From Proteiniborus ethanoligenes (lineage in GTDB: Bacteria; Bacillota; Clostridia; Tissierellales; Proteiniboraceae): a stretch of DNA of 64,000 bases. Numbering within the stretch: the stretch's first letter is position 1; the number at the start of each line of letters is the position of its first letter. Of this stretch, positions 3,060 to 52,154 are shown one piece after another. The position numbers and the translations under genes were made by a program. Location of the stretch: positions 1-64,000 of the forward strand of contig NZ_FNQE01000014.1 in assembly GCF_900107485.1 (NCBI RefSeq), read 5' to 3'. The notes under the pieces were generated by a model. The model had not been told where the DNA came from, did not search any database, and worked only from the letters and a program-made list of their open reading frames with translations.

Positions 3060-3065
3060 TTTTGC

Positions 3066-28089: not shown

Positions 28090-28217
28090 GTTCATCAAAC
28101 AAACTCCTTTCCTTTTTCAAATAAAGTTCTATTAGAATTGAGGATTAAGGGAGAAGGTTTAAGGAGAATCCTATCCATTTCTCCTATCCATTTTCTTTTC
28201 CATTCAATCTTCCAATA
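28090..28217. repeat. Dispersed repeat R1, first copy
   Basis: About 128 bp with TTCATCAAACAAACTCCT, TTTTTCAAATAAAGTTCT and CCATTTCTCCT(A/C)TCCATTTTC. The same elements recur in the same direction at 31389-31668. No coding potential is supported. Confidence 0.75.
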
Positions 28218-31335: not shown

Positions 31336-31388
31336 CAATATATATTCTCTTGCAATATCTTACATTAGAATTAATCTATTTATAAATG

Positions 31389-31668
31389 TATTCATCAAAC
31401 AAACTCCTCACCTTTTTCAAATAAAGTTCTCTCACCAACACCCCCCAAACCCTTGAAAACACTGACCTGTTTTTTCGTCCCTTATTTCCCACTTATGCCC
31501 TTTTCCCTTGAATCTGCTCTCTAAAGTCCTTACATTTTGAAGTTTTTAGGGCAAAAAATGAAAATAAAGTTCTATTAGGATTGAGGGTTTAGGGAGAAGG
31601 TTTAAGGGGAGTTTTATCCATTTCTCCTCTCCATTTTCTTTTCTATCTTATCTTCCAATCCATTGATT
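31389..31668. repeat. Dispersed repeat R1, second copy (interrupted)
   Basis: Same elements as 28090-28217, but about 130 bp lie between two copies of AAATAAAGTTCT (about 31419-31430 and 31560-31571), as if a segment was gained here or lost in the other copy. No gene is supported in 30971-31917. Confidence 0.65.
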
Positions 31669-31719
31669 TATCTGGCTTTTAGCCTTACATCCTTTTTTTC
31701 TTCTAATAAAAATTCTAAT

Positions 31720-31770
31720 AAAAAAACCATAGTTCCTAGGCATTCCTTATACCTTTTCCCTATGGTTTTA
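31720..31770 (-). terminator. Terminator of the four-gene nuclease operon
   Basis: AAAACCATAG / CTATGGTTTT stem with TTTTTT after it on the minus strand, about 150 bp behind the last gene of the operon. Confidence 0.7.
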
Positions 31771-31917
31771 TACAACAACTTTATTTACATTTTAAAATGA
31801 ATTTGCATAATGATAGGACTTTATTTGATGGAGACATAGATACAGGAACAAGGGGTAAGAAGCAAGGGAATAAGGATACCATTATATACAAATTTATTGC
31901 TGATTTCAGATTATCTT

Positions 31918-32763: not shown

Positions 32764-33570
32764 CTAATAAGTAGGCTTACCAATGGTACTTTTTGCACTA
32801 TCGCATAAATTATCATAATGCAGTAAAAGAATTTTATGCTTATCTACATATCTTCGTTTTTCTTTATATGTTTTTAGATTGAAAGCATCTCTTCTTCCAG
32901 CAACAACTGCATAGTGTATTCTTGTTTTATCAAGGCTAAAAAATTCATTAGGCAACTGTTCATTTGGGTTCTTATATTTTTGAAAAGTTTCTCTGAGTGA
33001 CACATAATTTGACTCAAGCCATTCATCCCAATCAAATACCTGTTTTATACCTTTTCTAAAAGTATCTCCTAAATTTCCATCTTTTAAGGTGATTTTTCCA
33101 TATGGATTTTCTAACTCAACAAAGACGAACTCATATCCACCTGAGTTTTTTCCTATGAGTAGGTAATCTACTTTGTATGAATTTCCCAACATAAACTCTG
33201 GTATAATAAATGCATCATGATGCCCAAAGTTATAATTTGATTTTAAAATAGAACCAATTATAAAATATGCTTTATTATTCTTAATAAACTTTGCAATATC
33301 ACTCTCAATAATGTTTTCATTACTTAAAAAATCGTAGAAATTAGAAATACTAGTCTTAAGCATATCTTCATTTTTTAAATCTTCTATATCCAAGTAGTTA
33401 TTAGGAAATATACTTAAATAATGTCTAACTGCTTTGGGATATTTCCTAAACATTGATTTTCTAATATTAAATTTTCCTGTAGTCTTTACCACTTCTTTTT
33501 TCTTAAGCATTTCCCATTCATTTATCTCATCTTCGGTTAATTTAGTATAATCTCTATCATAAATCCTCAT
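32764..33570 (-). CDS. Shedu-like (DUF4263) nuclease-fold protein
   Basis: 268 aa. The C-terminal half (about 90-260) has the outline of the SduA/DUF4263 nuclease domain: IIPEFMLGNSYKVDYLLIG, then EFVFVELENPYGKI, then KGIKQVFDWDEWL. The core reads D...ELE, so the usual Lys of ExK is Glu here. Shedu is a single-gene anti-phage system in which the SduA nuclease cuts or binds DNA. ATG behind GGGAGAG. Third gene of the operon, 75 bp behind the preceding one. Confidence 0.65.
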   Translation of the reverse strand: MRIYDRDYTKLTEDEINEWEMLKKKEVVKTTGKFNIRKSMFRKYPKAVRHYLSIFPNNYLDIEDLKNEDMLKTSISNFYDFLSNENIIESDIAKFIKNNKAYFIIGSILKSNYNFGHHDAFIIPEFMLGNSYKVDYLLIGKNSGGYEFVFVELENPYGKITLKDGNLGDTFRKGIKQVFDWDEWLESNYVSLRETFQKYKNPNEQLPNEFFSLDKTRIHYAVVAGRRDAFNLKTYKEKRRYVDKHKILLLHYDNLCDSAKSTIGKPTY

Positions 33571-35656: not shown

Positions 35657-37366
35657 CTAAAATTTAAAATTGCAATCATATCCTCTGTTATTTAATATCT
35701 GCTTAATTTCCTTATAAATCCCTTCCATGTACCTTGGCTTAACACATGCTGTTTCTGCTATATTCCATAATGTTATTTCTTTTCCCTGCCTTTCTAATTC
35801 TTCAATGCCCCATTTTATTTTTCTTATATGGAATTCTTCTAGACTTTCTAATTCTGAGTCTATATATGCCTTTGTCAATGAGAGTTTCTCCTTCCTTTTA
35901 GAGAGCCAGCCGCTAATCCCTAACTTGCCTCCTATAGTTGACCATGTTATCCTTTCAGGCTTGCCTTCCTTCATTTCTTTTATCACTTCCTTAACTTTAG
36001 GAAGCAATTCAGCATCTCTTTTATCCCAATCAACAGTGTTAACTACTGTTTTTATTCTGCGATAGTTTTCTTCCATCCATTCACTATCATATCTTTTCAG
36101 CCATGCATAAACTCCATCGTTATTTTTACGAATTTGGCTACTACTTTTATCAGGATATTGAGCATGGAGTTCAAGCCACTTTTCCCTTAACCTTTCCCTT
36201 TTCATTCTAAATTCTTCTGTATCAGTAAACTTGCTGTGAAGATATTTTCCACCACCATTAAATTTCCAAAACTCTTCTACTCCTAACCTATCAATAGCCT
36301 TCCTAATTGTTTTTGTAGATGACTTTAATATATCTGATATTTCTCGGATTGATAGTCCTGACTGGGTAAGTTCTATCAACCTCTGGTCCCACAGTTCCTG
36401 ATAAGCATCAATGTTTTTTTCATCTTCATTATTAGAGCCAAGTTTTGTATTAAATAAATCAGCCACTGGAATTCCGAGAAACCTCGCTAATAATAGATAC
36501 CTTATTGAATAGGTTGTCCTATCATTATTTCTAACCATATCAGGTAGCCAACCTCCGCTATTAACTGATACAGGGGATTGAACAAGTGCCAAGTATTCAT
36601 GACCATAGAAATCCACAAAGTCTTGTTTTAACTTCTTTTGGTGAATATAATTGTTCATCCTAGCATAGCCTTTTTCAATCAACTTAACTCGAAACTGATT
36701 TCTAAACCACTCAGTCTTCTTAAATCCAAATTGATTATTTAGAAGTATTTCTACATCTCCTGCCATCCAAAGCATCTTCTTCATCAAATAATTTGAATAA
36801 CTTATTTCTTTTTCTACAATACAGTTCTTACAAGATGCGCTAATAAACCTCTGTCTATTTCCTGCCCTTATGAGTTCTGTGCTGTTATAAAGGGGTATCT
36901 TATGTTTTAAACATACAAATACCCCTGTAACCTGATGGCTTCTGTGCCAATATGGCTCTCCAAATCTTTCTATGTCCTCTTTAAAACACTCAGGACAAAA
37001 TCGAAAGTATTTATTTAAATTGATAGAATTTGATATTAGACCTATCCTCATGTAGGAAACTGCCCCTTCACCATTTTTCATAGTTTCAATTATCTTTTCA
37101 GCCCTGTCTCGTGGGATAAATGCTGCAAGATAAGGAAATAAGGTATGCTTATAGATAAAATATTCTGCTGTATATTTTGTACTGATAGGCATATTTTCAA
37201 TTAATGCATCTAATTGTGTAGACAGTTCCATAACTGCTATACAGTTCCTTGTTCCGAATAAATCCTCAAAATTATGGATTTCTTTTATATTACCACTTCG
37301 TATACAGTATCGTGCCAGCGTACTATATAATATTTCGTCTGGATAAGGTGTAGGAAAAAAGTTCAC
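35657..37366 (-). CDS. tniQ: TnsD/TniQ target-selection protein of a Tn7-like element
   Basis: 569 aa. The TniQ domain occupies the N-terminal 200 residues, starting FFPTPYPDEILYSTLARY and with the zinc motif FCPECFKEDIERFGEPYWH ... H...CLKH. A long C-terminal part with helix-turn-helix-like segments (LTQSGLSIREISDILKSSTK) should bind a specific target site, as TnsD does. Its GTG start shares one base with the tnsC stop codon, so translation is coupled. Length agrees with a full TnsD rather than the short TniQ of CRISPR-linked elements. Target gene unknown. Confidence 0.9.
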   Translation of the reverse strand: MNFFPTPYPDEILYSTLARYCIRSGNIKEIHNFEDLFGTRNCIAVMELSTQLDALIENMPISTKYTAEYFIYKHTLFPYLAAFIPRDRAEKIIETMKNGEGAVSYMRIGLISNSINLNKYFRFCPECFKEDIERFGEPYWHRSHQVTGVFVCLKHKIPLYNSTELIRAGNRQRFISASCKNCIVEKEISYSNYLMKKMLWMAGDVEILLNNQFGFKKTEWFRNQFRVKLIEKGYARMNNYIHQKKLKQDFVDFYGHEYLALVQSPVSVNSGGWLPDMVRNNDRTTYSIRYLLLARFLGIPVADLFNTKLGSNNEDEKNIDAYQELWDQRLIELTQSGLSIREISDILKSSTKTIRKAIDRLGVEEFWKFNGGGKYLHSKFTDTEEFRMKRERLREKWLELHAQYPDKSSSQIRKNNDGVYAWLKRYDSEWMEENYRRIKTVVNTVDWDKRDAELLPKVKEVIKEMKEGKPERITWSTIGGKLGISGWLSKRKEKLSLTKAYIDSELESLEEFHIRKIKWGIEELERQGKEITLWNIAETACVKPRYMEGIYKEIKQILNNRGYDCNFKF

Positions 37367-39048
37367 TATATCACCCCCTTGGCGAAAATATCATCTTCAA
37401 AACTTACAATATGTCCTGATTCTTTTATAGCCTCATACGCACTTTTATTATCCTTTTTGCCCTGTTCAACAATGCTTCGAATATCAAATGAGTTTACAGC
37501 ATTTCGCCCTGATTCTCTTTCTTCCATTTTACCTGTTCCTTTTTTCCCTATCCCCCCTACTTCTTCATCCTTAAGTTGTTCTATCACACCTTTTACCATA
37601 TCATCTGCACCTAAGTCTTGGTTTTTAGAAAACATAGTATCAATTATTTTTTGTGCCTTTTTAATATCTACACCTAACTCAACAAGTTTTATCAGTGCCT
37701 CTTTTTTTACCCCTATAGAGCCCTCTTGCCTTAGTTTTTTTTGTTCTTTCTTTATCTCCTTAGCCCGCAAGTCCAGGTTAATAGATTCTCTCGTCCGAGT
37801 TAAATAATCTGTATAATCAATATCCGCCATATAGATATCTTCATATTTAATAATTTCTCTCATATTATTCGTCTTTAATGCAGTAATCATTGGCTGAATT
37901 AGTTTTAAATTCTCTTTTGCTACCTTTTTAATAATTTGTGGAGTTATCTCTTCCTTTCCTGTTGATATAGCATGGGCTTGAGCAATAGCATAAACCTTTT
38001 TTAATAAATCAGGTATCCCCTGGGTTTCTTCATATAAAACATTACTTATTTCAGGGGTAAGGAGCGTTTCTTTCCTCATCCACTGGTAGTGCCATATAGA
38101 ATCTACTAATAAGTCCCACACCCCATCTCTTTGAATCCTATCGCATACCATATCGCCACCGAGGCCTGACCCTCTGCGTGCCTGTCTGAAGTCTCCCTGA
38201 AGGACTTTGATTGCTTTTGGGGTTCCCACTAAAATAACTGGTACCCCTACATTATTTACGAGGTTTACAAAGAAATTTAACATCTTTTCACTTCCACCAG
38301 ATTTGGCCATACTTAAATGTTGTATCTCATCAATAACTAAAATGCCTAGAGCACAATTTCTTACCACCTGATTCATGACGGTCATCATCACATCAACAGT
38401 TGGTCTTGTCCTCATTACTTTTTCATGATAATTGGTTCCAAGAAGCCTGTCTATTTCAGCAAAAAACTCGTATAAGAGTCCCTTAATTGAGCCGTCATGG
38501 GGGCATTCCAATTTCAGATATACTACCTGATACATCGAAAAAGGAATTTCTTGATATTCAGAATGCACAATTATCTGAGGATATAAAGTTAGTACCCTAT
38601 TAAGAGAAGAAGTCTTTCCCAAACCTGATATTCCTATCAAAGAAAATCCTAGTGAAGTTGAATAAAAATCTTTATTATTTATTAGGTTACTAGTATTCTC
38701 ATGATAATCTCTGTAAAACCCTTGAGCCAGTTTGCTGCTAAATGGATTCCGGGAAAGGTATCCTTGCCTTATTGCACGAGAAATCTTTCTTTCAAGTTCT
38801 ATGCTCATAGGGAGGGGCTGAAAAACCTGAAATAATCTGTCTACCATATGAATACGATAGTGACTGTCCAGCAATCTTTCACTTTTATTAAATTCGGGAT
38901 AAAAAGCCAATCTTTCAATTGCCTCTTGGGCGGAAAGGAGATTAGGAAGAGATTCAATAAATGGATTGCCTTTATAATCTGGAATTATCTGCTCTATATA
39001 CTCTGCCTCTACTGCTATACTACCATTCGGTATTATCACTTCCTTCAT
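37366..39048 (-). CDS. tnsC: TnsC-like AAA+ regulator ATPase
   Basis: 560 aa. Walker A GISGLGKTSS and Walker B ILVIDEIQHL are intact; sensor-type segments follow (PVILVGTPKAIKVL). The N-terminal 110 residues and acidic, Lys/Glu-rich C-terminus flank the AAA+ core and should contact TnsAB and TniQ. TnsC passes the target signal from TniQ to the transposase. Starts inside the end of tnsB (29-nt overlap). Confidence 0.92.
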   Translation of the reverse strand: MKEVIIPNGSIAVEAEYIEQIIPDYKGNPFIESLPNLLSAQEAIERLAFYPEFNKSERLLDSHYRIHMVDRLFQVFQPLPMSIELERKISRAIRQGYLSRNPFSSKLAQGFYRDYHENTSNLINNKDFYSTSLGFSLIGISGLGKTSSLNRVLTLYPQIIVHSEYQEIPFSMYQVVYLKLECPHDGSIKGLLYEFFAEIDRLLGTNYHEKVMRTRPTVDVMMTVMNQVVRNCALGILVIDEIQHLSMAKSGGSEKMLNFFVNLVNNVGVPVILVGTPKAIKVLQGDFRQARRGSGLGGDMVCDRIQRDGVWDLLVDSIWHYQWMRKETLLTPEISNVLYEETQGIPDLLKKVYAIAQAHAISTGKEEITPQIIKKVAKENLKLIQPMITALKTNNMREIIKYEDIYMADIDYTDYLTRTRESINLDLRAKEIKKEQKKLRQEGSIGVKKEALIKLVELGVDIKKAQKIIDTMFSKNQDLGADDMVKGVIEQLKDEEVGGIGKKGTGKMEERESGRNAVNSFDIRSIVEQGKKDNKSAYEAIKESGHIVSFEDDIFAKGVI

Positions 39049-41182
39049 CCATCATCACCTCTTTCTGTTTTTGAAACAGCAATTGCAGGGTATCCATCTC
39101 TTCGGTTTCTTTTTCTTCTTTGTTGGCTTTAAAATATTGATTATCATTGCCTAAATCAAAAGCCTCTTCCAGCCTTCTTACGGACTTTTCAGCCTTCCTA
39201 TTCTCCCTAATGTTCTTTACTCTTTGTCTATCACTTCCTACTGTACTCGTCTCATTTTTATAGTCTTCTTCTGCTTGCTGAACTATGTCTTCTATTTCAG
39301 CAATTAACTGAGTCTTGGCTTGTGCTACATTATCTTTGCTCTTTTCCTGCTGCATTTTTTCTACTACTAATAAGTATTCTATTTCTTCAAATGCCTTATC
39401 TTTATATCTGCTGTTAGCATCTACCAAAAAACATTTCTCGTATTCATTAGGGTTATCATTATAGACATAGATATATTCCATATTACGTGGGTCATAACTT
39501 ATTTTAATTTTCCGTGTTCCCTTGGTTCGTGCATCAGCAAACATTCCGTTTTTTAGCATAGACTTTGCTGCATAATACATATCTTTATACCTAATCCCTT
39601 TTGCAGTCACAGTGGCTGTATCAGAAGGCATCAGTGCTAGTTTTGCAGCATCCTCTGGAACTGTTCTAAGTGTCCCACCTCGATTTGCAATACCCCAGTT
39701 CCAAAGTTCTATTGGAATACAGGAAACATTATCTTCAACCATATCTTCATCACGCTTATAGTAATCCAAATGATAATGATTATTGTGGTATAAAATGCAT
39801 TTTATCATTATCTGAGTAAATTGAAATAAATCCAGTTTTGCTTTTATCCTATAGTCTTTATCCCCTCGTTCCCTTCCATCTAAATCCACAACACCTGGCA
39901 CAAATGGCTTTACTCGCTCATTTGTAAGTCCAAAGAACCTTTCAACTGCTGATTTCAGGTCTGCTCGATAAGGTGGTGTATTTTGAACTTTTACATTTAG
40001 AGTATTTATAAGGTTATCAATATTTCCTCCTTCTAGTTCTCCACGGTCTGCTATTATAGTTTCTGGAAGATGGTGTACAGGCCAATCCTTCTCCCCTATT
40101 TCAATACCATACTGCTTACAAAACTCCACTTTATTCATGGTTGCGTTTAAAAGCGCCATCATGGCTCCTGCATAAGAACCTGTTTCTAATCCAATATATA
40201 GACCGCATATTAGTCTACTGAACTTGTCAATTACTGCATAAATGGCTGGTCTACCTATAACCCAGTTTCTGTTGAATCTTGATACCAAATAAACATCACC
40301 CACCTGGCAATCTATTTCGAATTTTCCCGGCTGAAATACTCCATCTAAAGAACTGCCTATTATAGGTCGATACTGTTTTTGATACTTTTTATTGCTGTAT
40401 CTGCTAGTTATCTCTTTTTTTATATTTCGCTCCTTCTCAAACCAATACCTAAACTGCCCAAAGGATGGAATTTCCGCCTGAGGCTTTATAATTGGTATCT
40501 TAACTCCATTTTCTTCTTTAAAACCATCCGAAAAATATTCTTTTCTCATGAGTTCATAAGTCAATGTTAAAGAATTTTTTGCTGTGGTATAGTAGTATTT
40601 ATTTACAGCAATACGAAAGATTCTTTTTATTTCCTCAGTAACATTTACCCCTTCTCCTATAATAGACTGATTAGTTCTAGGTCTTCCTCTTTTCACATTT
40701 CCAGCCTTTCTCTCTTTGCCCTTTGCTCCACAGTTTCGGTAATCTGGTAATAAAGCGTTGCAAGTTTTTCCCCTTTTCCAGTACCTTTTTAAATATTCCA
40801 GAATCCATGATTCACTTAATCCACAGGTTTCGGAGGCTCTTTTAATTAACTTCCCTCTAAAAGCAGATTGAAAAATATCTGGCTCCTTATCTACCATATC
40901 CCTAATTACTTCCCACGCCCTATCCCTAATTTTCTTATGTTTTTCAGGTATATCTTGTTCCTTTAACACAACTATAAATTCGTCATCATCTTTTATTTCT
41001 GCCTTCCCTCCAGCCAATGCATCTTCTATATCCTTCTGTCTTCGAATATAAGGAACTTTATTTTTATTTACATCTATTGTGTAGGCTATTTCATCATCCA
41101 TCCACAGAAGTCTCTCAATGTTAGTACTTTCAGTCCCATCTTTCCATTCTAGTAAGGAATTAACCGTATACCTTAACATCAT
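39020..41182 (-). CDS. tnsB: TnsB-like DDE transposase
   Basis: About 720 aa. The RNase-H-fold triad is complete: Asp in FEIDCQVGDVYLVS, Asp in TIIADRGELEG, and Glu in SAVERFFGLTNERVKPF. N-terminal helix-turn-helix regions (IKRASETCGLSESWILEYLKR) should bind transposon ends; a C-terminal beta-barrel and coiled tail follow. It cuts and joins the 3' ends. Start chosen at the ATG behind AAAGGGGG; it overlaps the end of tnsA by 23 nt. Confidence 0.93.
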   Translation of the reverse strand: MMLRYTVNSLLEWKDGTESTNIERLLWMDDEIAYTIDVNKNKVPYIRRQKDIEDALAGGKAEIKDDDEFIVVLKEQDIPEKHKKIRDRAWEVIRDMVDKEPDIFQSAFRGKLIKRASETCGLSESWILEYLKRYWKRGKTCNALLPDYRNCGAKGKERKAGNVKRGRPRTNQSIIGEGVNVTEEIKRIFRIAVNKYYYTTAKNSLTLTYELMRKEYFSDGFKEENGVKIPIIKPQAEIPSFGQFRYWFEKERNIKKEITSRYSNKKYQKQYRPIIGSSLDGVFQPGKFEIDCQVGDVYLVSRFNRNWVIGRPAIYAVIDKFSRLICGLYIGLETGSYAGAMMALLNATMNKVEFCKQYGIEIGEKDWPVHHLPETIIADRGELEGGNIDNLINTLNVKVQNTPPYRADLKSAVERFFGLTNERVKPFVPGVVDLDGRERGDKDYRIKAKLDLFQFTQIMIKCILYHNNHYHLDYYKRDEDMVEDNVSCIPIELWNWGIANRGGTLRTVPEDAAKLALMPSDTATVTAKGIRYKDMYYAAKSMLKNGMFADARTKGTRKIKISYDPRNMEYIYVYNDNPNEYEKCFLVDANSRYKDKAFEEIEYLLVVEKMQQEKSKDNVAQAKTQLIAEIEDIVQQAEEDYKNETSTVGSDRQRVKNIRENRKAEKSVRRLEEAFDLGNDNQYFKANKEEKETEEMDTLQLLFQKQKEVMMDEGSDNTEW

Positions 41183-42017
41183 TATTTCCCCCTTTGTCAC
41201 TTATTTCAGGTATGTAAACTGATTTTCCTGTTTGGCTAAGATTTATAGGCTTATCCATATCTAAAACTATCCTTTTCTCTGCAACTAAACGTTTAAATAA
41301 TAGTAATCCCATTCCGACATCCAGTGAATAGTCTTTTTCAAATCCTGCTATAATGTTCTTTATGCTCTGCTTATTATCAATAAATCTGTATAAAATACCG
41401 TCAAACAAGTCATCAAACTCAGCCTTAGAAAGACCGTTGCAGTCATCAGAATTCATCACTGAATGAACCCATTCTATATTTTTTGCCCTGACATCATTAA
41501 TGTCCTTATTTGTCACAATGCCCCAATCAATTCCTTGAGCCTTCCAGTACCTCCTTTCAATTTCCAGTTTCTCGATTGTACTCTTTTTAGACAATTCCGA
41601 AGCATATTTTATGCTTCTTGCAGTAAAACTCTTTTTTCCATCAGAGTTCAATAGTGTAATCAAAAATGTAGTAGTTAGTATATAAGGCTCCTTGGTTTTC
41701 CTGTCTATAAACTTACCAAGTCTTAAATCCGATGTATCTTTTAACACTACTTCTAAATCTATAAGGGGATAATGCTCTCGAATATCGATAACTTTTTCTT
41801 CCCAATCTAATAAATAAAAATACTTTAATTGCGTATCTGAAAAAAAATGATGTATTCTTTGAGTTGTCCACCCAAAAACTCTTGTTACCCTGCCCATACT
41901 AGGGAAATCCTGCACAGTTAGCCAAGGCTTATATTCCTTCCCTTCTCCCTGACCCCTGCCTTCCTTTATCCATCTATTTAATTTGTTTGAATCCCAATCA
42001 TTGCTTCTTTTAGCCAT
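41160..42017 (-). CDS. tnsA: TnsA-like protein with altered catalytic site
   Basis: 285 aa. Very close to Tn7 TnsA in layout: IKEGRGQGEGKEYKPWLTVQ, HHFFSD, WEEKVIDIREHYPLI, and IEKLEIERRYWKAQGIDWGI. The family nuclease site is Glu63, Asp114 and Lys132 in Tn7. Here the Glu63 position is Gln63 (codon CAA at 41831-41829), the Asp114 position is Thr117 (ACA at 41669-41667), while the Lys (Lys137) remains. The protein probably cannot cut the 5' ends yet keeps its structural role. ATG behind GGAGG. Confidence 0.9.
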   Translation of the reverse strand: MAKRSNDWDSNKLNRWIKEGRGQGEGKEYKPWLTVQDFPSMGRVTRVFGWTTQRIHHFFSDTQLKYFYLLDWEEKVIDIREHYPLIDLEVVLKDTSDLRLGKFIDRKTKEPYILTTTFLITLLNSDGKKSFTARSIKYASELSKKSTIEKLEIERRYWKAQGIDWGIVTNKDINDVRAKNIEWVHSVMNSDDCNGLSKAEFDDLFDGILYRFIDNKQSIKNIIAGFEKDYSLDVGMGLLLFKRLVAEKRIVLDMDKPINLSQTGKSVYIPEISDKGGNNDVKVYG

Positions 42018-42599: not shown

Positions 42600-43058
42600 T
42601 TATATAAGAGGTCTTCCATTTCCTTTTAATTTTTCATTAAACTTATCCATTACTGTTTTATACTTCTCTAAATTCTTTTGTTGCTTTTTAATATCTATAC
42701 TAGAATTGTACATATATATATGTGAGAATAAAAAACTTATATCATCACGCTCTAACATAGCATAGTCTTCGTATAATTCCATATTATCCTTTATTACTTT
42801 TTTAATTCTCTTGCATTCTCTTCTACAGTTTTGGCCATCCTCTACTAGCCCCCATTCATTCTCATTCATAAGTTTTTCTTCATTTCCTTTTAAAAAACTT
42901 ATGAATTCATCAAGGAAATTTATCAAAACCTCTACTTCTGTTCCATCCAAATATATCTTTTCTTTTCTATCTTTAATACAAAAACCGTCAGAGGATTTTT
43001 GCTTATGCTCAATCTTTTTTAATCTAAAATTGTCTAGGCTCACTATATTATTTTCCAT
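42600..43058 (-). CDS. Unknown helical protein, 152 aa
   Basis: Begins MENNIVSLDNFRLKKIEHKQK; the rest is charged and helical with a possible coiled coil at the end (DIKKQQKNLEKYKTVMDKFN). No family recognised. Start chosen at the ATG 9 nt behind GAGGT. Neighbours are other unknown accessory genes. Confidence 0.55.
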   Translation of the reverse strand: MENNIVSLDNFRLKKIEHKQKSSDGFCIKDRKEKIYLDGTEVEVLINFLDEFISFLKGNEEKLMNENEWGLVEDGQNCRRECKRIKKVIKDNMELYEDYAMLERDDISFLFSHIYMYNSSIDIKKQQKNLEKYKTVMDKFNEKLKGNGRPLI

Positions 43059-43221
43059 TTTTAACATACCTCACTTTTTTATTTATTTACTTTTAGCATA
43101 ACACGAAATTTTTCTAGAATTGCCAAAAGCGTAGAATAACATTAAGATTATGTTACAATTGTATTAATTCTAACTTATAAAAAAATATTGGCGAACAAAT
43201 CGCCAACATTCCAAACCCCTA

Positions 43222-43662
43222 TCAACTCAAAGCAGTCCTATTTTCTTGATAGTTATTAATGTAATCTCTATATTCCTTTATATCCTTTTTATTCAGCATA
43301 GAATATATGCTTTCTATTTGCCATACAAGGTCCTCATATTTCTTATTGTGTATGCCCATTAATTGTAAATTTAAGTGTACACACTCCCTAAAAACTAAAA
43401 ATTCTGCTATATTTAGTTCAAGTATAATTTCCTTCCTATTGTACGGTTCAGCCATTAAAATAAGTAATTTAGTCATTATCATCTCTGTATTGGCGATATT
43501 TTCATGGATTGCAAAGTCATCTATAACTCCCTCTTCATATCTTAAAATTTCTAGATGCCTATTTATCTGCCGTAGCAATGATAATAACAATTCCTTGGGA
43601 ATCTTAATCTTAATATTTACCTCATTAAACTTAGAATAAATTTCTTCTGGTTTTAAATGCAT
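43222..43662 (-). CDS. Unknown helical protein, 146 aa
   Basis: Mostly helical, no Cys clusters, no membrane segment and no recognised motif. The segment HENIANTEMIMTKLLILMAEPYNRKEI recalls four-helix HEPN-like folds but lacks the Rx4H motif. ATG behind GGGAGGG. A weak inverted repeat upstream of 43200 may end it. Confidence 0.5.
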   Translation of the reverse strand: MHLKPEEIYSKFNEVNIKIKIPKELLLSLLRQINRHLEILRYEEGVIDDFAIHENIANTEMIMTKLLILMAEPYNRKEIILELNIAEFLVFRECVHLNLQLMGIHNKKYEDLVWQIESIYSMLNKKDIKEYRDYINNYQENRTALS

Positions 43663-43814
43663 AGTATAAGCCCTCCCTATATTATAAAATTCCTATTTCT
43701 TAAACTCTATATAATATAAAGAGGGCTGCATATTCTTATCAAGTTTCATTTCATCTTTTATTATTAATTTAAAAATAGTTATGTTTTTAATCACACAAAT
43801 TAATCAACTTAATA

Positions 43815-44243
43815 TCAACACCACTCTAACATATTGGTTGATATAATCTTGGGTATCAAACCGACTCTACCATTGTTTGTAATTTTAATATTTTCTCTAC
43901 CTCTATAATATTTATAATTACTTGTGTTCTCAGACGGTTTACAGTATGTAATTAATAATGATTCTACATCATCTAATTTCTTTGAGGAGAACTTTTTACC
44001 TGGTTCAAATGATAGCACTCCAAATCTAATAAACAGTTGTCCCCGATAAACATGTAACCAATCTTTAGCATGTTCATTGATTCGGTAAACAAAGGGTCTT
44101 TCAGTTTTCCCAATATATTGAAGTGTCTCATTATTACCGAATACTCTATATATTGCATAAATTCCTGTTTTATTTACTATACTATATTTATCAATATTAT
44201 GTAGTTTGTATGGCCCATGCCAAGTTATCGTGATTTCTTCCAT
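43815..44243 (-). CDS. GIY-YIG nuclease-domain protein
   Basis: 142 aa. The GIY-YIG core is plain: TGIYAIYRVFGNNETLQYIGKT, then the Arg-containing helix VYRINEHAKDW, with the late metal-binding Glu in DDVESLLITYCKP. Single-domain proteins of this type are small nucleases in repair or defence. It lies behind the Gabija-like pair on the same strand. Start chosen at the ATG behind GAGGTGAG. Confidence 0.8.
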   Translation of the reverse strand: MEEITITWHGPYKLHNIDKYSIVNKTGIYAIYRVFGNNETLQYIGKTERPFVYRINEHAKDWLHVYRGQLFIRFGVLSFEPGKKFSSKKLDDVESLLITYCKPSENTSNYKYYRGRENIKITNNGRVGLIPKIISTNMLEWC

Positions 44244-44480
44244 TTTTTGCTCACCTCGCAATTTATCCCTGATTGTTCTTAACCAATCTATTTTATTCAA
44301 AACAATCGCTTAGTGCGGTTTCTAATTCAGATATGATGTTATGTTTAATATAAGTTGTTCATTTTTTAGTCCCTAATAGATAGGGTAATAATAAATGTAG
44401 GTGTCGAGACACATACTTTTCATTTTCATCTGTCTACACTGGTAATATATCAGAGATAAAATATCATTGTTTACAGTGAA

Positions 44481-44583
44481 CTAATCTTTTATTCTTATCT
44501 CATCCCTGGCTTCTTTTATAGCAACATACAATAAGTTTTCCTCTCCACCAATATGTCCACAATTAATTTGGTTAGCGAGTACT
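44481..44583 (-). pseudogene. Fragment of a UvrD-type helicase C-terminus
   Basis: One minus-strand frame reads ANQINCGHIGGEENLLYVAI then KEARDEIRIKD and a stop. It parallels the end of the adjacent gajB (EENLLYVALSRVKEKLVVF), the motif VI region of UvrD helicases. A stop lies just upstream, so only this tail remains. The rest of 44244-44632 shows no gene. Confidence 0.6.
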
Positions 44584-44632
44584 CATTTGGTGAACACAAA
44601 ACCTAAATAATAATAAATATTATATAACCAAT

Positions 44633-46402
44633 TTAAACTACCCAGTCAAATACTACTAATTTCTCTTTCACTCTGCTAAGTGCTACATAAAGCAAATTTT
44701 CTTCTTTATTAATGGCTTCTCTATCTATTAAATAGACATAATCAAACTCTCTTCCTTTTGATTGATGTACATTAAGGACATATATCCCTTTTAATTCTCT
44801 AAATGCCTTAAGATATTGATATTGTAAAAATATATCCATGATTTTATCTTCTGAGTAACTACTGAACTTTAAAACTTTTTTTACTAAAGACATCAAATCA
44901 TAATTTATTTGCAATTCACTACCATTTATTAACTTTATACTATTGCATAGACACTTATAATAGTTATTATCTACCATTGCTTCCTCAACATAACTTCTAA
45001 TAGTTTTAAGTATATCTAAACGTACTCTCTTTAAACTATTGAATGACACATCATCTAATTTATTACGATTAATTGAACCTATATTGCTGTCATCAACAAC
45101 GGCAAAAATATATTTAAATATCTCCCTACATAACTCATCTTCGTTTATCTTACTTTGTTGTTTCCGCATAAATTCAATTAAATCACATACAACATTATGT
45201 TCATCTTCATTATTATTGATAGTCTGAGAATTAATATTAAACTCTTCCTTTAAGGCTTTCTTTAATAAATTTACTTGTTCATTCCCTCTACATAAAATAC
45301 CTATGGATTTGTTTTTCCTATCTTTATACTTTGGTAACTCATGAAATACTCTATATTTTAAAACCGCAAACATATGATTTTTTATTTCCTTGGAATAAAT
45401 ATTTTTTCCTCTCACTTTGACTTTTATATACTTAATGTTTTCAGAAGAATTAAAGTTTTTTATGTTATGGGTTCCTTCTCTGACCTCTTTAAGTGTATTT
45501 TCTATATCCTTACGGCTTTTAAATCTCATTACTTCGAGAAGTTCTTTTTGTTTAATTTCACCCATATAGTTATTCAATAAATTATTTAATCTTTCCGAAG
45601 ATGCACCTCTCCATCCATAAATCATTTGTTTAGAATCAGCAAAAAATATGGCGTTATTATTCATGCCAATCAATTTTTTTATTATCTTATCTTGTAAATC
45701 GGAAGAATCTTGGTATTCATCCAATATAATAAGATTATATTTATTTTGGATAATATTTAGCAGTGCCTGCGATTTTTGCAATAATTTCCACATATAATAG
45801 GCTATATCTGAAAAACCTATATAACCTTCTCTATTCATTTCTTTTATTATATCCTTGATATCTTCCTTGTAGGGAATAAGTTTTTTAACAGTAGGTTTCA
45901 CGTTTCCCTTATAAGTTAAAGGTCTAAAATCTCCTTCTAGCAAAGACTCAGCCCATTCGTATTGTTCCTTATCATCTCCATCGTACTCTGGTATGAATGA
46001 AAGTTTATTCTTAAATGCCTCTCTCCGTTGTTTTGTTGACATAATAATTAAATTTTCTTTTAATCCTAAATATTGACTATAAGCCCATACATATTTTTGA
46101 AAAAAAGAGTGAAAATTAGTTATTTCAATATATTTATCCCAATTGACATCACGAGAACCCAATATATCTAACTGCTTTTCAATTTGCGCTTTTGCGTTTT
46201 TAGAAAAGGTTAATATTAATACTTTTTTATTATACAGGGGATTAGTTTTAATATTAAAATATGTATAATTTATAGCAGTTGCAACTGCCGTAAATGTTTT
46301 GCCAGTTCCAGGAGGTGCTTCAACTAGCAATACTCTATTCCTTGAATTATTCTGAGTAAAATAATTAATAATATATTCTTGCTCTGGGTTTGGTTTAATC
46401 AT
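44633..46402 (-). CDS. gajB: Gabija helicase-like protein GajB
   Basis: 589 aa UvrD/PcrA-like superfamily 1 protein. Walker A VEAPPGTGKTFTA, motif II LDEYQDSSDLQ, motif III FFADSKQMIYGWRG, and motif VI LLYVALSRVKEKLV are present. In Gabija, GajB senses DNA ends and works with the GajA nuclease in anti-phage defence. Start chosen at the ATG behind GAGGTGA, 1 nt after the gajA stop; a longer frame is possible. Length is close to known GajB. Confidence 0.85.
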   Translation of the reverse strand: MIKPNPEQEYIINYFTQNNSRNRVLLVEAPPGTGKTFTAVATAINYTYFNIKTNPLYNKKVLILTFSKNAKAQIEKQLDILGSRDVNWDKYIEITNFHSFFQKYVWAYSQYLGLKENLIIMSTKQRREAFKNKLSFIPEYDGDDKEQYEWAESLLEGDFRPLTYKGNVKPTVKKLIPYKEDIKDIIKEMNREGYIGFSDIAYYMWKLLQKSQALLNIIQNKYNLIILDEYQDSSDLQDKIIKKLIGMNNNAIFFADSKQMIYGWRGASSERLNNLLNNYMGEIKQKELLEVMRFKSRKDIENTLKEVREGTHNIKNFNSSENIKYIKVKVRGKNIYSKEIKNHMFAVLKYRVFHELPKYKDRKNKSIGILCRGNEQVNLLKKALKEEFNINSQTINNNEDEHNVVCDLIEFMRKQQSKINEDELCREIFKYIFAVVDDSNIGSINRNKLDDVSFNSLKRVRLDILKTIRSYVEEAMVDNNYYKCLCNSIKLINGSELQINYDLMSLVKKVLKFSSYSEDKIMDIFLQYQYLKAFRELKGIYVLNVHQSKGREFDYVYLIDREAINKEENLLYVALSRVKEKLVVFDWVV

Positions 46403-46403
46403 T

Positions 46404-48296
46404 TTATTCACCTCGCACATTCAGAATACAAGTATATCCTTCTCTAACGCTTGCACACTTTTTGCAAATATCATCATGTACGAGTGAAGGATTAACTACT
46501 TTATGAACTATACATTTTTTAGATTGTTTACAAACACGATTACTATCTACATATACGCCTATCAGTTTAAACATATTTTTAAATGCTACAGGCAGAAAAT
46601 CTTTAATTTTTCTATCTTGTGCTTCACATACTAAATATGAAGCAACATATTTAGCATTAGATACACCTGCAAGATTAATATGTAAAAACTCTCTTTGAAA
46701 TTCTTTAATCTCATTATCGTCTAAAAAACTAATCATTTGTCCCAAACTCTTAGATTTCTTTATCGCTTCTATATTATTATATTTACCTTTAAGAACATCA
46801 CTTTTTGATGAATCTGACGTGAATGGTTTCAAATAATTATCTTTATAATCTTTGAATTTATAAATTCCTTCAAAAAGTTCCTCCCAGCAATCCTGAAAAA
46901 CTTGCATACTTATTATTGAGGTTTCATAGTCTTTTGGTAAAATTAGAATTAAACATTGAACCTTATTTTCTACAAAATCATTTAGTAAACGTTCAATATC
47001 ATCATCGTTATCAATTAGACATATGCAAGGAATATTGCACTCACTAAAGAATTTTGCATATTTATAAACTTCATTCTTCCCTCCTCCTCTGATTAAATCC
47101 ACTCCATTATATTCTAAACCTTTACTATATTCTTTTGAAAATATCGGAAGTCCTAATAATTCTGAATCACCTTCCACTAATAAAACACCTTTGGAAAATA
47201 AACCTGATATTAACTCTCTTTTAGCAAACCTCTCAATTTTCCTCTCAAATGCATTATCAACACATTGTGATGAAGGAAGACAACTAATTTTCCCATCTCT
47301 CATTAAAAAAATATCCTCAAACTCATGCATTTTTGCTACTTCAATTGAATGAGTCGTTAAGAAGATTTGACCTTTTATAGTATCAGTAACATTTTGGATT
47401 ATTTTCCGTTGCATAAAAGGTTCAAGGTTTTGCTCTGGCTCTTCTAAAAATAATATTCCTGTTTCTTTTAACAATTCTCCTAGAGCAATTAACAACATTA
47501 AATTTTTAATGCCTCTAGACTGATATTTAATTGGTATGTATTTTGTTGCATTCTTATTTTTAAAAACAAGGCTAAATGCTTGTAAAGTTTTTCTTTCAGT
47601 TAATTCAGTGGCTTCTAGACTTATAGCCGCTTCTTCATCTGATATCAAATTAAAATCAGCAAAATCCTTACCCAAATTATCCAATGCCGTCTTAAAATCT
47701 GGGTCTTGCATTAAGCAAGGAGCAGTAGTATCATTAAATTCTTCAATTGCGTTTTGTATTAACACATTCAAATTATCATGATACATAAACCTTGATAATA
47801 CTGAATTTCTAACGAAAGAAAGTTCTTTAAGCGGGTCTCTATCTGACTCTATGTATTTAAAATTAATCAAACCTTTATGTGCTTGTCTTAACGGATGTTC
47901 TCTCCCATTTGAAAAAATACTATGTATTGCTTTCTTATCAGGTCCAGCCTTAAACCTTGTAATTAAAACTAGTTCTTGTCCATTTTCACTAAAGTTATCG
48001 TTTTCATCAACATGTTGAAAATATAATTCTCCATCATCTTCAATGAATTCTTCCAAATCCTTGAACCATACTTCAATTAAAATAGAATTAGATGTGTCCC
48101 TATCATAATATTCTATTTCTGATAATGCTTTATTGTACCATTGAATATATGGATTGAGTAAATAGTCTAATGCCGTTGCCAATGTTGATTTTCCGCACCC
48201 ATTAGGACCTATTAGCACATTAACATTTTTATTTGGTTTCCATTCTAGCCTTTTAATATTCCTAAAATTTTCAATTATTATTTTATATATATACAC
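46404..48296 (-). CDS. gajA: Gabija nuclease-like protein GajA (OLD family)
   Basis: 630 aa. ABC-type ATPase with Walker A GPNGCGKST (residues 30-38) and Walker B GILFLEEPEQNLEP, then a TOPRIM domain with LLVEGDSE and CLIDNDDD. The last 45 residues hold six Cys (KQSKKC ... ICKKC ... YTC), a possible zinc module not standard in GajA. OLD-type nucleases followed by a UvrD-like helicase define Gabija. Start is GTG 6 nt behind GGAGGG. Confidence 0.88.
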   Translation of the reverse strand: MYIYKIIIENFRNIKRLEWKPNKNVNVLIGPNGCGKSTLATALDYLLNPYIQWYNKALSEIEYYDRDTSNSILIEVWFKDLEEFIEDDGELYFQHVDENDNFSENGQELVLITRFKAGPDKKAIHSIFSNGREHPLRQAHKGLINFKYIESDRDPLKELSFVRNSVLSRFMYHDNLNVLIQNAIEEFNDTTAPCLMQDPDFKTALDNLGKDFADFNLISDEEAAISLEATELTERKTLQAFSLVFKNKNATKYIPIKYQSRGIKNLMLLIALGELLKETGILFLEEPEQNLEPFMQRKIIQNVTDTIKGQIFLTTHSIEVAKMHEFEDIFLMRDGKISCLPSSQCVDNAFERKIERFAKRELISGLFSKGVLLVEGDSELLGLPIFSKEYSKGLEYNGVDLIRGGGKNEVYKYAKFFSECNIPCICLIDNDDDIERLLNDFVENKVQCLILILPKDYETSIISMQVFQDCWEELFEGIYKFKDYKDNYLKPFTSDSSKSDVLKGKYNNIEAIKKSKSLGQMISFLDDNEIKEFQREFLHINLAGVSNAKYVASYLVCEAQDRKIKDFLPVAFKNMFKLIGVYVDSNRVCKQSKKCIVHKVVNPSLVHDDICKKCASVREGYTCILNVRGE

Positions 48297-48609
48297 CTCT
48301 ATCCCTCCAATGAATATTTAATTAATGAGTCCGCTAAACCAGTTACGCAAATCAGGAAACTGTTTCATATTACCCTAACCCCACAAAATATATTTATAAC
48401 TTATATAAATTATAGGACAAACTTCATAATTTTTCCACAAAACTTGTCAACAAAATATAAGTTCTTTTTCCAGTTCTCTTTAAATCTAAATAAAAACACC
48501 CATATAATCGTCCATTATCCCATAAAAAATTGGAAACAAAACTTTAACACTCTCTTGAAACCCTTATCCAATATATTTTATAGTATTAAAAACTATAGGA
48601 AGGATGTTG
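48297..48609. other. Divergent intergenic region between gajA and the recombinase gene
   Basis: A possible gajA promoter on the minus strand reads TTGACA (48450-48445) with TATGAA (48428-48423), 16-nt spacer. Nothing else stands out; no gene is supported. Confidence 0.35.
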
Positions 48610-49518
48610 ATGATGGAATATAATAAGGGATTAACTGAAAGCAATTTTTATATTGATGAATTTGCCACTTATTTGATGAGCATAGACAAGTCTGATTCCA
48701 CAATAAAAACTTATATCGAGCATGTGCAGGCATTTGCGAAATGGTTTAAAGAAACCAATGACATAAATTTTGACCCTATTGTAGTAACTGAAATTGATAT
48801 CAGAGATATGCGTTCATATCTACAGGGAACAAGGCATTTGAAAGAAACAACCATTAATTTAAGATTGGCCAGTCTGAAAAGTTACTTTGAATTTCTTGAA
48901 GGAGAAAAATATATAAAAAATAATCCTGCCAAAGCAATTAAAAAAATAAAGATTCAATCACCTGCTACACCCAAGTCTTTGGATGAACAGACCTACCGTG
49001 CCTTACGCCGTCATATATACCGTGGGGGTAACAAGGCTCATATTGCCATGTTTGAGATTTTTACAAGATGCGGGGTTAGAAATTTTGAACTCATAAATAT
49101 CCGTATTACTGACATTGATATAACTGAACGAAAAGGAAACTTAAAAGTAATAGGAAAGCAAAATAAAGTGCGTCATATCCCCTTGCATAGGGATGTTCGG
49201 GATGCAATTAACAACTGGATGGCAATAAGAAAAAACGTTAAAACAGAATGTGATAATCTGTTCATATCCGAACGCAAGACCCCTTACACTAGGTCAGGAA
49301 TCTGGAAGATTTTCAAAAAATACTGTGCACAAATAGGGATTACTGATGTAACTATTCATTCTTTTAGGCACTATTTTTGCAGAACACTTCTCAAAAATGG
49401 GGTTGATATTTCTATAGTTGCTCAACTTGCAGGTCATGCTTCTGGTTATGTTACGGCACAAGTATATACTATTCCAAGGCAAGAAGAATTGGAGGCAGCA
49501 ATAAAAACATTAGTTTAG
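48610..49518 (+). CDS. Tyrosine recombinase (integrase family)
   Basis: 302 aa, XerC/D-like. N-terminal SAM-like core-binding domain (KSDSTIKTYIEHVQAFAKWF). The catalytic domain has Arg in CGVRNFEL, HxxR in HSFRHYFC, the GHAS motif, and nucleophile Tyr in AQVYTI. Integrates or resolves DNA, probably of the element that also carries the primase gene downstream. Start chosen at the ATG 6 nt behind AGGAAGG. A terminator follows. Confidence 0.9.
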   Translation: MMEYNKGLTESNFYIDEFATYLMSIDKSDSTIKTYIEHVQAFAKWFKETNDINFDPIVVTEIDIRDMRSYLQGTRHLKETTINLRLASLKSYFEFLEGEKYIKNNPAKAIKKIKIQSPATPKSLDEQTYRALRRHIYRGGNKAHIAMFEIFTRCGVRNFELINIRITDIDITERKGNLKVIGKQNKVRHIPLHRDVRDAINNWMAIRKNVKTECDNLFISERKTPYTRSGIWKIFKKYCAQIGITDVTIHSFRHYFCRTLLKNGVDISIVAQLAGHASGYVTAQVYTIPRQEELEAAIKTLV

Positions 49519-49650: not shown

Positions 49651-49672
49651 TTCTACTTGCTTCATAATTTCT

Positions 49673-49730
49673 AAAAGGAGAAACAATAAGAACCTAACTA
49701 TGCGTATAGGTTCTTATTATTTCTCCTTTT
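49673..49730. terminator. Long hairpin H1 upstream of the primase gene
   Basis: 23-bp stem with one mismatch around AACTATGCGTAT. The left arm contains GAGAAACAATAAGAACCT, shared with H2 at 51910-51960. T-runs on both sides make it a bidirectional terminator. Confidence 0.85.
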
Positions 49731-49899
49731 TATAAAAAAGTCTATGTAAAAATTTGATTTCAATAGCACAACAAATATAATGCTAAAAAATAAACAATGG
49801 AGTCGCTAATCAAGACGGGAAACACCTTATTAAAAACGGAGAGTTATAAAAATACTACGGAAAATGCCTCAATGTAAACGGAAAACATAATATCTAGTG

Positions 49900-49924
49900 A
49901 CTCCTCTGAAACGGAGGAGTTTTG
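49900..49924 (+). promoter_or_regulatory. Hairpin that hides the ribosome binding site of the primase gene
   Basis: ACTCCTC (49900-49906) pairs with GAGGAGT (49914-49920), which is the Shine-Dalgarno sequence; TTTT follows. It could act as a translational lock or as an attenuator. The stretch 49731-49899 shows only repeated ACGGA words and no gene. Confidence 0.65.
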
Positions 49925-51901
49925 ATGAATTCAAGAATTAACTATGAAAATCGTAAAGCATTAGGCATAACAGATTTTGAATTTTTATCCCTATTTAAAA
50001 AGGAGAATGAAAAAATATACTTTAGGCTCATTCAGGAGGAAAAGCATATAGCAAAGAACTTTGACTGTCTTCTTACTTTAGATGAGGAGTTAGAATACCC
50101 TCTTATGCAAAAAATAATTCAAAAATATCAGAGACAAGGCTATGGAGTCTATTTTGTAGTAAACAGTGGTGGACAAAAAACAGATTCTATTAAAAGGGTA
50201 AATGCACACTTTATTGATATGGACTTTGGAAAGGTTCCAAAAATTATTAACGGAGAACTCTTTAAAGATTCTGAAGGAAAGATTGTATATGAATATAGGA
50301 ACAAAGAAGAAATAGAGAAATATAAGATTGCTTTTCTGAAGAAATTAGAAAATTTTAAACTAATTCCAAATGCTATTGTAGAAACTAAAAACGGCTTTCA
50401 TGTATATTGGCTGCTTGACCCTGATAAGCCAGAAAGTTTAGATGTTTTTACTCCACTCCAGGAAAAACTTATTGACTATTTCTCCGCCTTTGAAGAAAGA
50501 AAAGAGCATGCTGATAGCAGTGTAAAGGATATAAATAGAGTTTTAAGGCTAATAAATTATAAACATTTAAAGAATCCAAAAGACCCATTTACTATAAAAT
50601 GTATATACCTAAATACAGAAATAAAATATACTCAACACGATATTGCAAGTGCCATAGGTTGTAATATCATTGAGTTGATTAATGATGCTAAAAGTCTTGA
50701 ACTAAAACCCGCTGCTACGAGGGCTAAGACCAGCAACTTGCAAAAAGGAAACCATAAAGTTCATTCTACTCCAGTCTTACAGTATGAGGACTTGATTCCA
50801 TTTTTAAAACAGCAGGACTTAATAAGTTATCTAGGTATTGATGCAAAATCTAATGCGAACTTTAAATGCATATTCCATAACGACAACAACCCCAGTGCTG
50901 TCATAAAAAATGGCGGTGGATATTACAAGTATTTTTGTAATTCTCCTACTTGTATTTGCCATAATGCTGGGAAAGGCATGGATATTATTGATATAGTTAA
51001 AATTAGAGAAAACTGCGACACTTCAACTGCTATAAGAGAGTTAATTGAATATTTTCATATTAAATTGAAGGATTCAACTTGGATAAATAAACAGAATAAA
51101 AGATTTGAAAATAACATTATGCTTTTAAGTCAACTTTATGAAAGAAAAAACGAATTTCCAAACCTAAACCGTATCATTAGGTTTGGTTACCCTCTACTAT
51201 TAGATATTCTTGAAATTGGTAAAAAAAATATTGTTAACCGTTTCTTTAATGCAAATGGAGAAAGCATATTTTTCTTTTCTAATCGATATCTTGCAGCAAA
51301 AAGGAATAAAAGCGTCGTGAATACAAATAAATACATTAACTTATTTTGCACCTTAGGATTACTCAACAAAATCCCATATAGCCATGTAAATAAAAACTTA
51401 AGAGCAACTGCTATTCAAATTTCCAAAGATAATAGTCAAAACGGAATTTCTTTCTATACTATTTCTGACTATAATGAGGCTTTTAAAACAGCAGATGAAA
51501 GAGCATCCATCATGCTTAAATATAAATTTAGCATCATGGGTATGAGCAAAAAATATTTGGAAAACTGTTTTGGAGAAGAGTTTGCAAATAAAATCTATCA
51601 TGTAAATGTGAAAGATACCGAGAAAAGCAAAAGCATAAGAGATGCCATAGAAGTATTCATACTGCAACAAATCAAAACCTATGGTTACTTCACCAAAGAT
51701 ATGGTTATGGATTATAAACTAAAAGTGGACAACCATTATATAAGGCGTGGAGCAAAAGAATATGAATTTAGGAAGGTTTTACCTGATGTCATTCAAAAAT
51801 ACGACCTGATATATGTGAAGGCTAATAAAAACATTAATCAAAAACTAGGTATAGACACTAAGAAATATCTACTTATTCAAAATAGCCTATTAGACAAATA
51901 A
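49925..51901 (+). CDS. Replication protein with AEP-type primase and zinc finger
   Basis: 658 aa. The N-terminal part matches RepB/AEP primases: AHFIDMDFGK with the metal-binding acids, then KNGFHVYW and SSVKDINRVLRL. Residues about 315-355 form a CHC2-like zinc finger (CIFHNDNNPSA ... FCNSPTCICH). The C-terminal 280 residues are unknown, with a possible winged-helix end. Suggests a plasmid or integrative element origin. ATG 5 nt behind GGAGGAG, which sits in a hairpin. Confidence 0.8.
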   Translation: MNSRINYENRKALGITDFEFLSLFKKENEKIYFRLIQEEKHIAKNFDCLLTLDEELEYPLMQKIIQKYQRQGYGVYFVVNSGGQKTDSIKRVNAHFIDMDFGKVPKIINGELFKDSEGKIVYEYRNKEEIEKYKIAFLKKLENFKLIPNAIVETKNGFHVYWLLDPDKPESLDVFTPLQEKLIDYFSAFEERKEHADSSVKDINRVLRLINYKHLKNPKDPFTIKCIYLNTEIKYTQHDIASAIGCNIIELINDAKSLELKPAATRAKTSNLQKGNHKVHSTPVLQYEDLIPFLKQQDLISYLGIDAKSNANFKCIFHNDNNPSAVIKNGGGYYKYFCNSPTCICHNAGKGMDIIDIVKIRENCDTSTAIRELIEYFHIKLKDSTWINKQNKRFENNIMLLSQLYERKNEFPNLNRIIRFGYPLLLDILEIGKKNIVNRFFNANGESIFFFSNRYLAAKRNKSVVNTNKYINLFCTLGLLNKIPYSHVNKNLRATAIQISKDNSQNGISFYTISDYNEAFKTADERASIMLKYKFSIMGMSKKYLENCFGEEFANKIYHVNVKDTEKSKSIRDAIEVFILQQIKTYGYFTKDMVMDYKLKVDNHYIRRGAKEYEFRKVLPDVIQKYDLIYVKANKNINQKLGIDTKKYLLIQNSLLDK

Positions 51902-51909
51902 TTGCTAAG

Positions 51910-51965
51910 AAGAGAAACAATAAGAACCTAACTATGGGGTTGGTTCTTATTGTTTCTCTTTTTGA
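51910..51965. terminator. Long hairpin H2 behind the primase gene
   Basis: Perfect 19-bp stem AAGAGAAACAATAAGAACC with loop TAACTATGGGGTT, then TTTTT. Nearly the same sequence as H1. Confidence 0.85.
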
Positions 51966-52055
51966 TAAATTCATCATACATGATTCCATAGCCTTAACGG
52001 CAGTTATTTCACCCGATTCCCATCGCTTATATGTTTTTTCAAAATTATCATCCAT
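51957..52055 (-). pseudogene. Tail of a resolvase-like protein
   Basis: MDDNFEKTYKRWESGEITAV followed by KAMESCMMNLSKRE looks like the C-terminal helix-turn-helix tail of serine recombinases (FxxVYxxWxSGEITAxxAM). The frame then runs into the hairpin H2 and reads nonsense. Either a fragment or a tiny stand-alone DNA-binding protein. Confidence 0.45.
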
Positions 52056-52130: not shown

Positions 52131-52154
52131 TTTCAAAAAGTACACTTTTTGAAA
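52131..52154. repeat. Short perfect palindrome
   Basis: TTTCAAAAAGT and ACTTTTTGAAA around AC; it lies behind the 26-aa frame. Confidence 0.6.

Follow-up and report, generated by a model that had tools for sequence, protein, structure and literature searches.

A clade of Tn7-like transposons that retains TnsA without its catalytic Asp: candidate replicative transposition with putative element-borne resolvases

A TnsABCD locus with an altered TnsA

The DNA analyzed here, a 64,000-nucleotide stretch of the Proteiniborus ethanoligenes genome (the window), contains the tnsABCD genes of a Tn7-like transposon, its putative left end, and a tyrosine recombinase gene with candidate recombination sites (Table 1). 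The TnsB triad, the TnsC ATPase and the TniQ/TnsD selector that characterize Tn7-like elements are all present. A first-pass annotation of the sequence had described TnsB, TnsC and TniQ as apparently intact, and the searches agree: TnsB has its D-D-E residues, TnsC matches AAA/TniB and TnsD contains both the TniQ and TnsD domains. Across the TnsB proteins compared, 37 of the 38 distinct rows keep the triad; the exception is G262, whose row is truncated ahead of the first D.

Table 1 Features of the transposon in the window
Feature	Position	Strand	Description
Left end	31387–31842	not assigned	TGT terminus, repeated AAATAAAGT-type sites, inverted arm
tnsD	35657–37366	minus	TniQ and TnsD domains (over Pfam cut-off); selects the target, probably the 3′ end of recR
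tnsC	37366–39048	minus	AAA/TniB ATPase (over Pfam cut-off)
tnsB	39020–41200	minus	DDE transposase; D297, D385 and E420 intact (ORF numbering)
tnsA	41160–42017	minus	285 aa, ATG start; E63Q, D114T (residue 117 here), K137 kept
Candidate recombination site	48435–48541	not assigned	CCACAAAA/CAACAAAA/GAAACAAAA-type repeats upstream of the recombinase
XerC/D-like tyrosine recombinase	48604–49518	plus	304 aa; R-K-H-R-H-Y intact; candidate resolvase
Serine resolvase C-terminus remnant	51972–52055	minus	28-residue match (86% identity) to the intact serine enzyme of G029
res-like palindrome	52131–52154	not assigned	Matches the first subsite upstream of the intact G029 serine resolvase

The catalytic residues of Tn7 TnsA, which we take to be E63, D114 and K132, provided the reference for the active site. 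In a phmmer search against solved structures, the window TnsA matched Tn7 TnsA (1f1z, 1t0f) with an E-value of 7e-43. The nearly gap-free alignment to residue 63 proposed in the first-pass annotation was reproduced; it runs without gaps through this residue and further. The aligned pairs (window/Tn7) are Q63/E63, T117/D114, S135/Q130 and K137/K132, and the codons, read directly from the DNA, are CAA for Gln63 and ACA for Thr117. Both carboxylates are thus lost and the lysine is kept, exactly as had been annotated, leaving Q, T and K in place of the Glu/Asp/Lys triad of active TnsA. The fold is that of TnsA, a PD-(D/E)XK core followed by a C-terminal domain, according to Pfam, where both the N and C domains exceed the cut-off, and Foldseek, where the top three matches of an AlphaFold2 model are the TnsA chains of 1t0f and 1f1z (E ~1e-17). 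The model (mean pLDDT 75, with residues 1–9 and 12–44 below 50) retains helix 61–72 and strands 115–123 and 129–137.

The altered residues are shared with close homologs, the comparison that the first-pass annotation had proposed as a check. Q63/T117 is common to the window, seven of 13 aligned relatives and a second genome of the same genus, G015 (98%), and these eight relatives are at 78–99% identity. None of the close homologs has Glu/Asp at these positions, a finding that, according to the first-pass annotation, would have refuted its reading had it been made. TnsA and TnsB are both under purifying selection: in comparisons of the window with eight relatives, dN/dS is 0.058–0.145 for TnsA and 0.045–0.156 for TnsB, the values for the three most distant relatives being rough because dS exceeds 1.3.

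Element ends, target site and variable cargo

The extent of the element was delineated by comparison with Clostridium homopropionicum (G001, locus L002) and G015, where the element lies on one contig. The DNA that the window shares with both starts at position 31387 and continues, with gaps, to contig position 77178, past the window. The elements span ~54.6 kb in G001 and ~56 kb in G015 (54–56 kb overall among relatives). In G001, G015, G006 and G009, the right end lies just beyond recR and the element is bounded by 5-bp duplications (CTTAT, AAATC, GCAAA and CAAGT, respectively). The duplications and the recR-side ends indicate that these elements move and that recR is the probable target of TnsD. 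Each of the four is a simple insertion, an outcome that either a cut-and-paste or a replicative pathway can leave. No right end was found on the contig of the window; the left end of the window, preceded by ATAAA, and a recR-side right end on contig C11, followed by TAAAA, neither pair nor form a duplication. G014, a genome of the same genus with no TnsA match, was considered as an empty target site and rejected, since the end of another element occupies recR. That end (contig C28, L125, ~3020–3300) is of a different Tn7-like type, which suggests that recR is a common hot spot.

Upstream of tnsA, positions 43746–48447 form a slot for variable cargo. In six loci, homology to the window ends at 43746–43749, immediately after TCAAGTTT, and it resumes at 48399 and 48430 in G001 and G015, beside the site upstream of the recombinase. 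The slot in the window holds GIY-YIG-like, GajB-like and GajA-like (Gabija) genes, the match of the GIY-YIG-like ORF (43815–44300; Pfam E 0.005) falling under the cut-off. A homolog of SduA of the Shedu defense system (32764–33570; PADLOC E 3e-122) also lies within the element and recurs in L002 and L011.

A single clade of TnsA proteins without the catalytic Asp

An initial scan yielded 14 distinct loci with TnsA. Further matches were found among 100 relatives (a match in 10), 398 genomes of the phylum (12), 249 genomes of the order (12), 20 genomes of one family (5) and 13 genomes of another order (1); these sets overlap, and those of 100, 398 and 249 all contain the window's own genome. A scan of viral contigs found no relative, and plasmid relatives, all below 60% identity across 506 records, were excluded. 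The resulting alignment comprises 44 rows including Tn7, and the tree was built from 43 rows after removal of the two catalytic columns; residue counts and tree omit the second G015 tnsA copy, which is split by a stop codon. In G029 and G023, the copies with Q/T have ORFs of 278 and 269 aa, from stop to stop, that read through the domain, and they were counted as ordinary rows.

At residue 117, Asp is present in 15 rows and absent from 28 (Thr in 19, Ser in eight and Asn in one). All 28 Asp-less proteins form one clade (support 99/97) nested among Asp-bearing TnsAs, so the Asp was lost once. Within this clade, position 63 changed between Glu and Gln at least three times, which agrees with the carboxylate having become dispensable; one copy, on contig C33 of G010, combines Q63 with N117.

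Other changes accompany the loss of the Asp. Position 82 is Gln and position 103 is Pro in all 15 Asp-bearing rows, whereas His82 and Phe103 are each found in 26 of the 28 Asp-less rows; Lys137, D78 and E81 do not vary across the alignment. The pocket thus seems to have been remodeled rather than randomly decayed. The first-pass annotation had named other acidic residues filling the metal site as an observation that would speak against its reading. The only acidic gain seen in the Asp-less clade is at residue 73, where Glu or Asp occurs in 26 of 28 rows versus two of 15. An Asp near residue 105 was rejected as a new acid because many Asp-bearing rows have it too.

Site-specific recombinases near tnsA

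The tyrosine recombinase of the window lies within the stretch common to G001 and G015, where the DNA is ~95% identical. A search for resolvases among relatives, also proposed in the first-pass annotation, gave a positive result: of the 20 Asp-less elements that could be scored, the window included, 15 have a tyrosine or serine recombinase close to tnsA, versus none of 13 Asp-bearing elements. Recombinases were sought with PF00589, local HMMs and tblastn, and serine enzymes also with PF00239 in 20 genomes; as the local HMMs were trained on the same set, they could miss very divergent recombinases. Eight of the 28 Asp-less rows (G002, G003, G004, G005, G062, G008 and the second copies of G006 and G009) were left out of the count because their contigs end 0.2–6.2 kb upstream of tnsA. 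Also outside it is the split second copy of G015, for which a tyrosine integrase of 441 aa is encoded 4 kb upstream.

Tyrosine recombinase genes are found upstream of tnsA, at distances of 18 bp to 12 kb, in G006, G009, G029, G023, G387, G658, G007 and two of the three G010 copies. Serine enzymes are encoded 130 bp upstream in the third G010 copy, 9.7 kb upstream in the E/S copy of G029 and 6.2 kb downstream in G167. The three Asp-less tnsA copies of G010, on contigs C26, C33 and C32 (L043, L094 and L095), each have a different recombinase 18–130 bp upstream: a 203-aa tyrosine enzyme, a 303-aa tyrosine enzyme and a serine enzyme. In the Asp-bearing elements, neither a recombinase nor a nearby PF00239 match was detected in the 8–20 kb read on either side. 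In five Asp-less elements of two subclades (G196, G666 and G669; G097 and G074), the stretches read, which in G196 and G669 lie between the end-like repeats, contained neither a recombinase nor a remnant of one.

Fisher's exact test gives p = 2.9e-5 for 15 of 20 versus 0 of 12 (the Asp-bearing total became 13 on addition of G269), a value that, given a single loss of the Asp, reflects one independent contrast. The diversity of the recombinases, in which tyrosine and serine enzymes interchange, is the stronger argument. The tyrosine enzymes, two sets of close relatives apart, share 16–48% identity, and they occur in either orientation. All 13 tyrosine enzymes retain R-K-H-R-H-Y.

Candidate recombination sites and a serine resolvase remnant

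Repeated sequences resembling resolution sites are located upstream of several of these genes. The res site of Tn3, recombined by TnpR, has three inverted subsites, and six alternating half-sites upstream of the G029 serine enzyme likewise form three inverted subsites. The inverted and direct repeats upstream of the recombinases of G387, G658 and G006 resemble the irs site of Tn4430 TnpI, with its two inverted and two direct subsites, the layout of which is given in a passage of PMC7157771. In G387 and G658 there are four copies of TTATGTAGC, exact or nearly so, in the order direct, inverted, direct, direct; in G006, TCCACAAAAC occurs four times, with one pair 13 bp apart. The window repeats, at 48435, 48448 and 48534, keep the 13- and 86-bp spacing of G006 without its inverted copy, and their copy number alone is within chance, being matched by 24 of 60 shuffles. 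When 16 upstream regions were tested in this way, six (G658, G387, G006, G007, G010 C26 and the G029 serine enzyme) were reached by 0–2 of 60 shuffles, and the remaining ten, including that of the window, were not unusual. Tn4430 and Tn3 encode a transposase of an unrelated family, and the window's own candidate site is weaker.

The window also holds a res-like palindrome and the C-terminal remnant of a serine resolvase, the latter adjoining the same small membrane-protein ORF as the intact G029 enzyme. Both are present in G001; G015 has the protein part alone. We infer that the lineage formerly had a serine resolvase and now depends on the tyrosine recombinase. Such turnover with retention of function agrees with a cointegrate model.

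Comparison with known systems

The element resembles Tn7 (TnsABCD, attTn7) in its tnsA-tnsB-tnsC-tnsD order, domains and fold, in ends with repeated transposase-type sites and, in the relatives, in 5-bp duplications located immediately downstream of a conserved gene. It differs from Tn7 in the absence of E63 and D114 from TnsA, in its target (recR instead of glmS), and in the recombinase and very long region between tnsA and the right end.

According to passages of PMC8649781, loss of tnsA in Tn5053/Tn402-type branches is accompanied by gain of a resolvase; these elements are predicted to copy and paste and carry a serine or tyrosine resolvase, as most of the scorable Asp-less elements carry a recombinase, but here tnsA is retained under purifying selection and only its active site is gone. 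The same source mentions, citing experimental work, that cut-and-paste is abolished by point mutations at catalytic positions of tnsA. In a passage of PMC8188705, the D90A mutant of a CAST TnsA, in which the equivalent Asp is removed, gives >95% cointegrate reads; that is a laboratory mutant, whereas the change in the window is natural, double (Glu and Asp) and accompanied by recombinases. A passage of PMC13345079 describes locking of the TnsB active site by TnsA with TnsC. Our search of the open-access literature found no description of a natural, retained, catalytically dead TnsA in the text it covered.

A proposed model of replicative transposition and its alternatives

Cut-and-paste transposition of Tn7 depends on TnsA, and laboratory mutants showed that such elements turn to copying when a single Asp is changed. 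The Asp-less clade, which spans clostridia and relatives, suggests that evolution made the same switch yet kept TnsA. In the model that we propose, TnsA would no longer cut DNA but would still be required in a structural capacity, as the partner of TnsB and TnsC. TnsB alone would cut and join the 3′ ends; the 5′ ends would remain joined to the donor, and replication of the intermediate would yield a cointegrate. A site-specific recombinase carried by the element would then resolve the cointegrate into two simple copies. In the window, the resolving enzyme would be the tyrosine recombinase and, earlier, the serine resolvase of which the remnant is left.

This combination of a non-cutting scaffold, replicative transposition and resolution by the recombinase is the probable one, as judged from sequence comparisons and the published passages on the CAST mutant, on tnsA loss with resolvase gain and on TnsA, TnsC and TnsB. 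The first-pass annotation had offered copying and a scaffold role as two readings, which probably hold together. Counting against the model are the one independent contrast behind recombinase presence, the five of 20 Asp-less elements in which no recombinase was detected, the unexceptional repeats upstream of the window's recombinase, and the Q82H and P103F changes alongside that of the Asp, which a rebuilt active site would explain as well.

Several other explanations were weighed. We give almost no credence to a sequencing error or a decaying gene. Broken copies do occur in the clade (the second G015 tnsA is split, and tnsC of the first G015 copy is broken), but the same residues recur in separate assemblies of several genera, in full-length ORFs at the low dN/dS given above, and the shared residues and purifying selection led us to reject both possibilities. 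Cutting of the 5′ ends by another enzyme is very improbable, be it a nuclease of the cargo or of the host or an intact TnsA acting in trans. G001 and G005 each hold a second, Asp-bearing TnsA, so help in trans is possible there, but only one TnsA-N match was found in the genome of the window; the GIY-YIG-like ORF was rejected as a substitute nuclease because it belongs to the variable cargo and was without a match in the 14 other loci searched. It is also improbable, if less extremely so, that the metal site has been rebuilt, for example from H82, E81 and K137, so that TnsA still nicks and the element still cuts and pastes. The near-fixed H82 and F103, the invariance of D78, E81 and K137 and the strong purifying selection would suit such a site, and the model strands would place residues 82, 117 and 135 side by side. 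Against it, no carboxylate pair has been gained, residue 73 being the sole acidic gain, Gln replaced Glu63 at least three times once the Asp had been lost, and one G010 copy has the Q63/N117 combination.

It is possible, though doubtful, that TnsA is dead and transposition replicative but that the recombinases are cargo or cargo-exchange enzymes, with cointegrates resolved by host homologous recombination. The tyrosine recombinase borders the variable cargo slot and may serve cargo exchange: homology with G001 and G015 breaks beside its site and six loci share the opposite break. The Asp-less elements in which no recombinase was detected point the same way, and the integrase of 441 aa close to the split tnsA of G015 resembles an ordinary one. 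Weighing against a mere cargo role are the lack of any recombinase in the 13 Asp-bearing elements, the three inverted subsites of the G029 serine resolvase with irs-like layouts elsewhere, and the proximity of the recombinases to tnsA in the three G010 copies.

Returning to the scaffold-and-resolvase model, on balance we lean towards its extension to the entire clade, in which a whole Tn7 branch would have changed its transposition mechanism through one lost active site. TnsA would be a remodeled, selected pseudo-nuclease that assembles the transpososome, the 5′ strands would stay uncut, transposition would be copy-and-paste, and unrelated tyrosine and serine resolvases would afterwards have been captured and exchanged repeatedly to complete the reaction. 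If this is true, the clade represents a natural intermediate between TnsA-bearing cut-and-paste elements and tnsA-less replicative ones, and makes the scaffold role of TnsA testable separately from cutting. It would also bear on Tn7- and CAST-based insertion tools, for which cointegrates are an unwanted product.

Additional features of the locus

Upstream of tnsA lie two small ORFs that are also present in other loci, one at 43222–43662 (six of 14) and one at 42600–43067 (four of 14); neither has a Pfam or NCBIfam match. A primase-like ORF (49922–51901) is flanked by near-identical palindromic sites in direct order (49664–49736 and 51898–51969), and this stretch is absent from G006, which gives it the look of an inserted cassette. 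Around the elements there are units of ~450 bp, single or in tandem, with a left-type end on one side and a right-type end on the other, both in the window (28087–28216 and 31387–31842) and inside the right end of G001, G015 and G006; they resemble leftovers of tandem insertions or mini-elements. Near the start of the window, the ORF at 82–1497 by eye resembles a group II intron reverse transcriptase.
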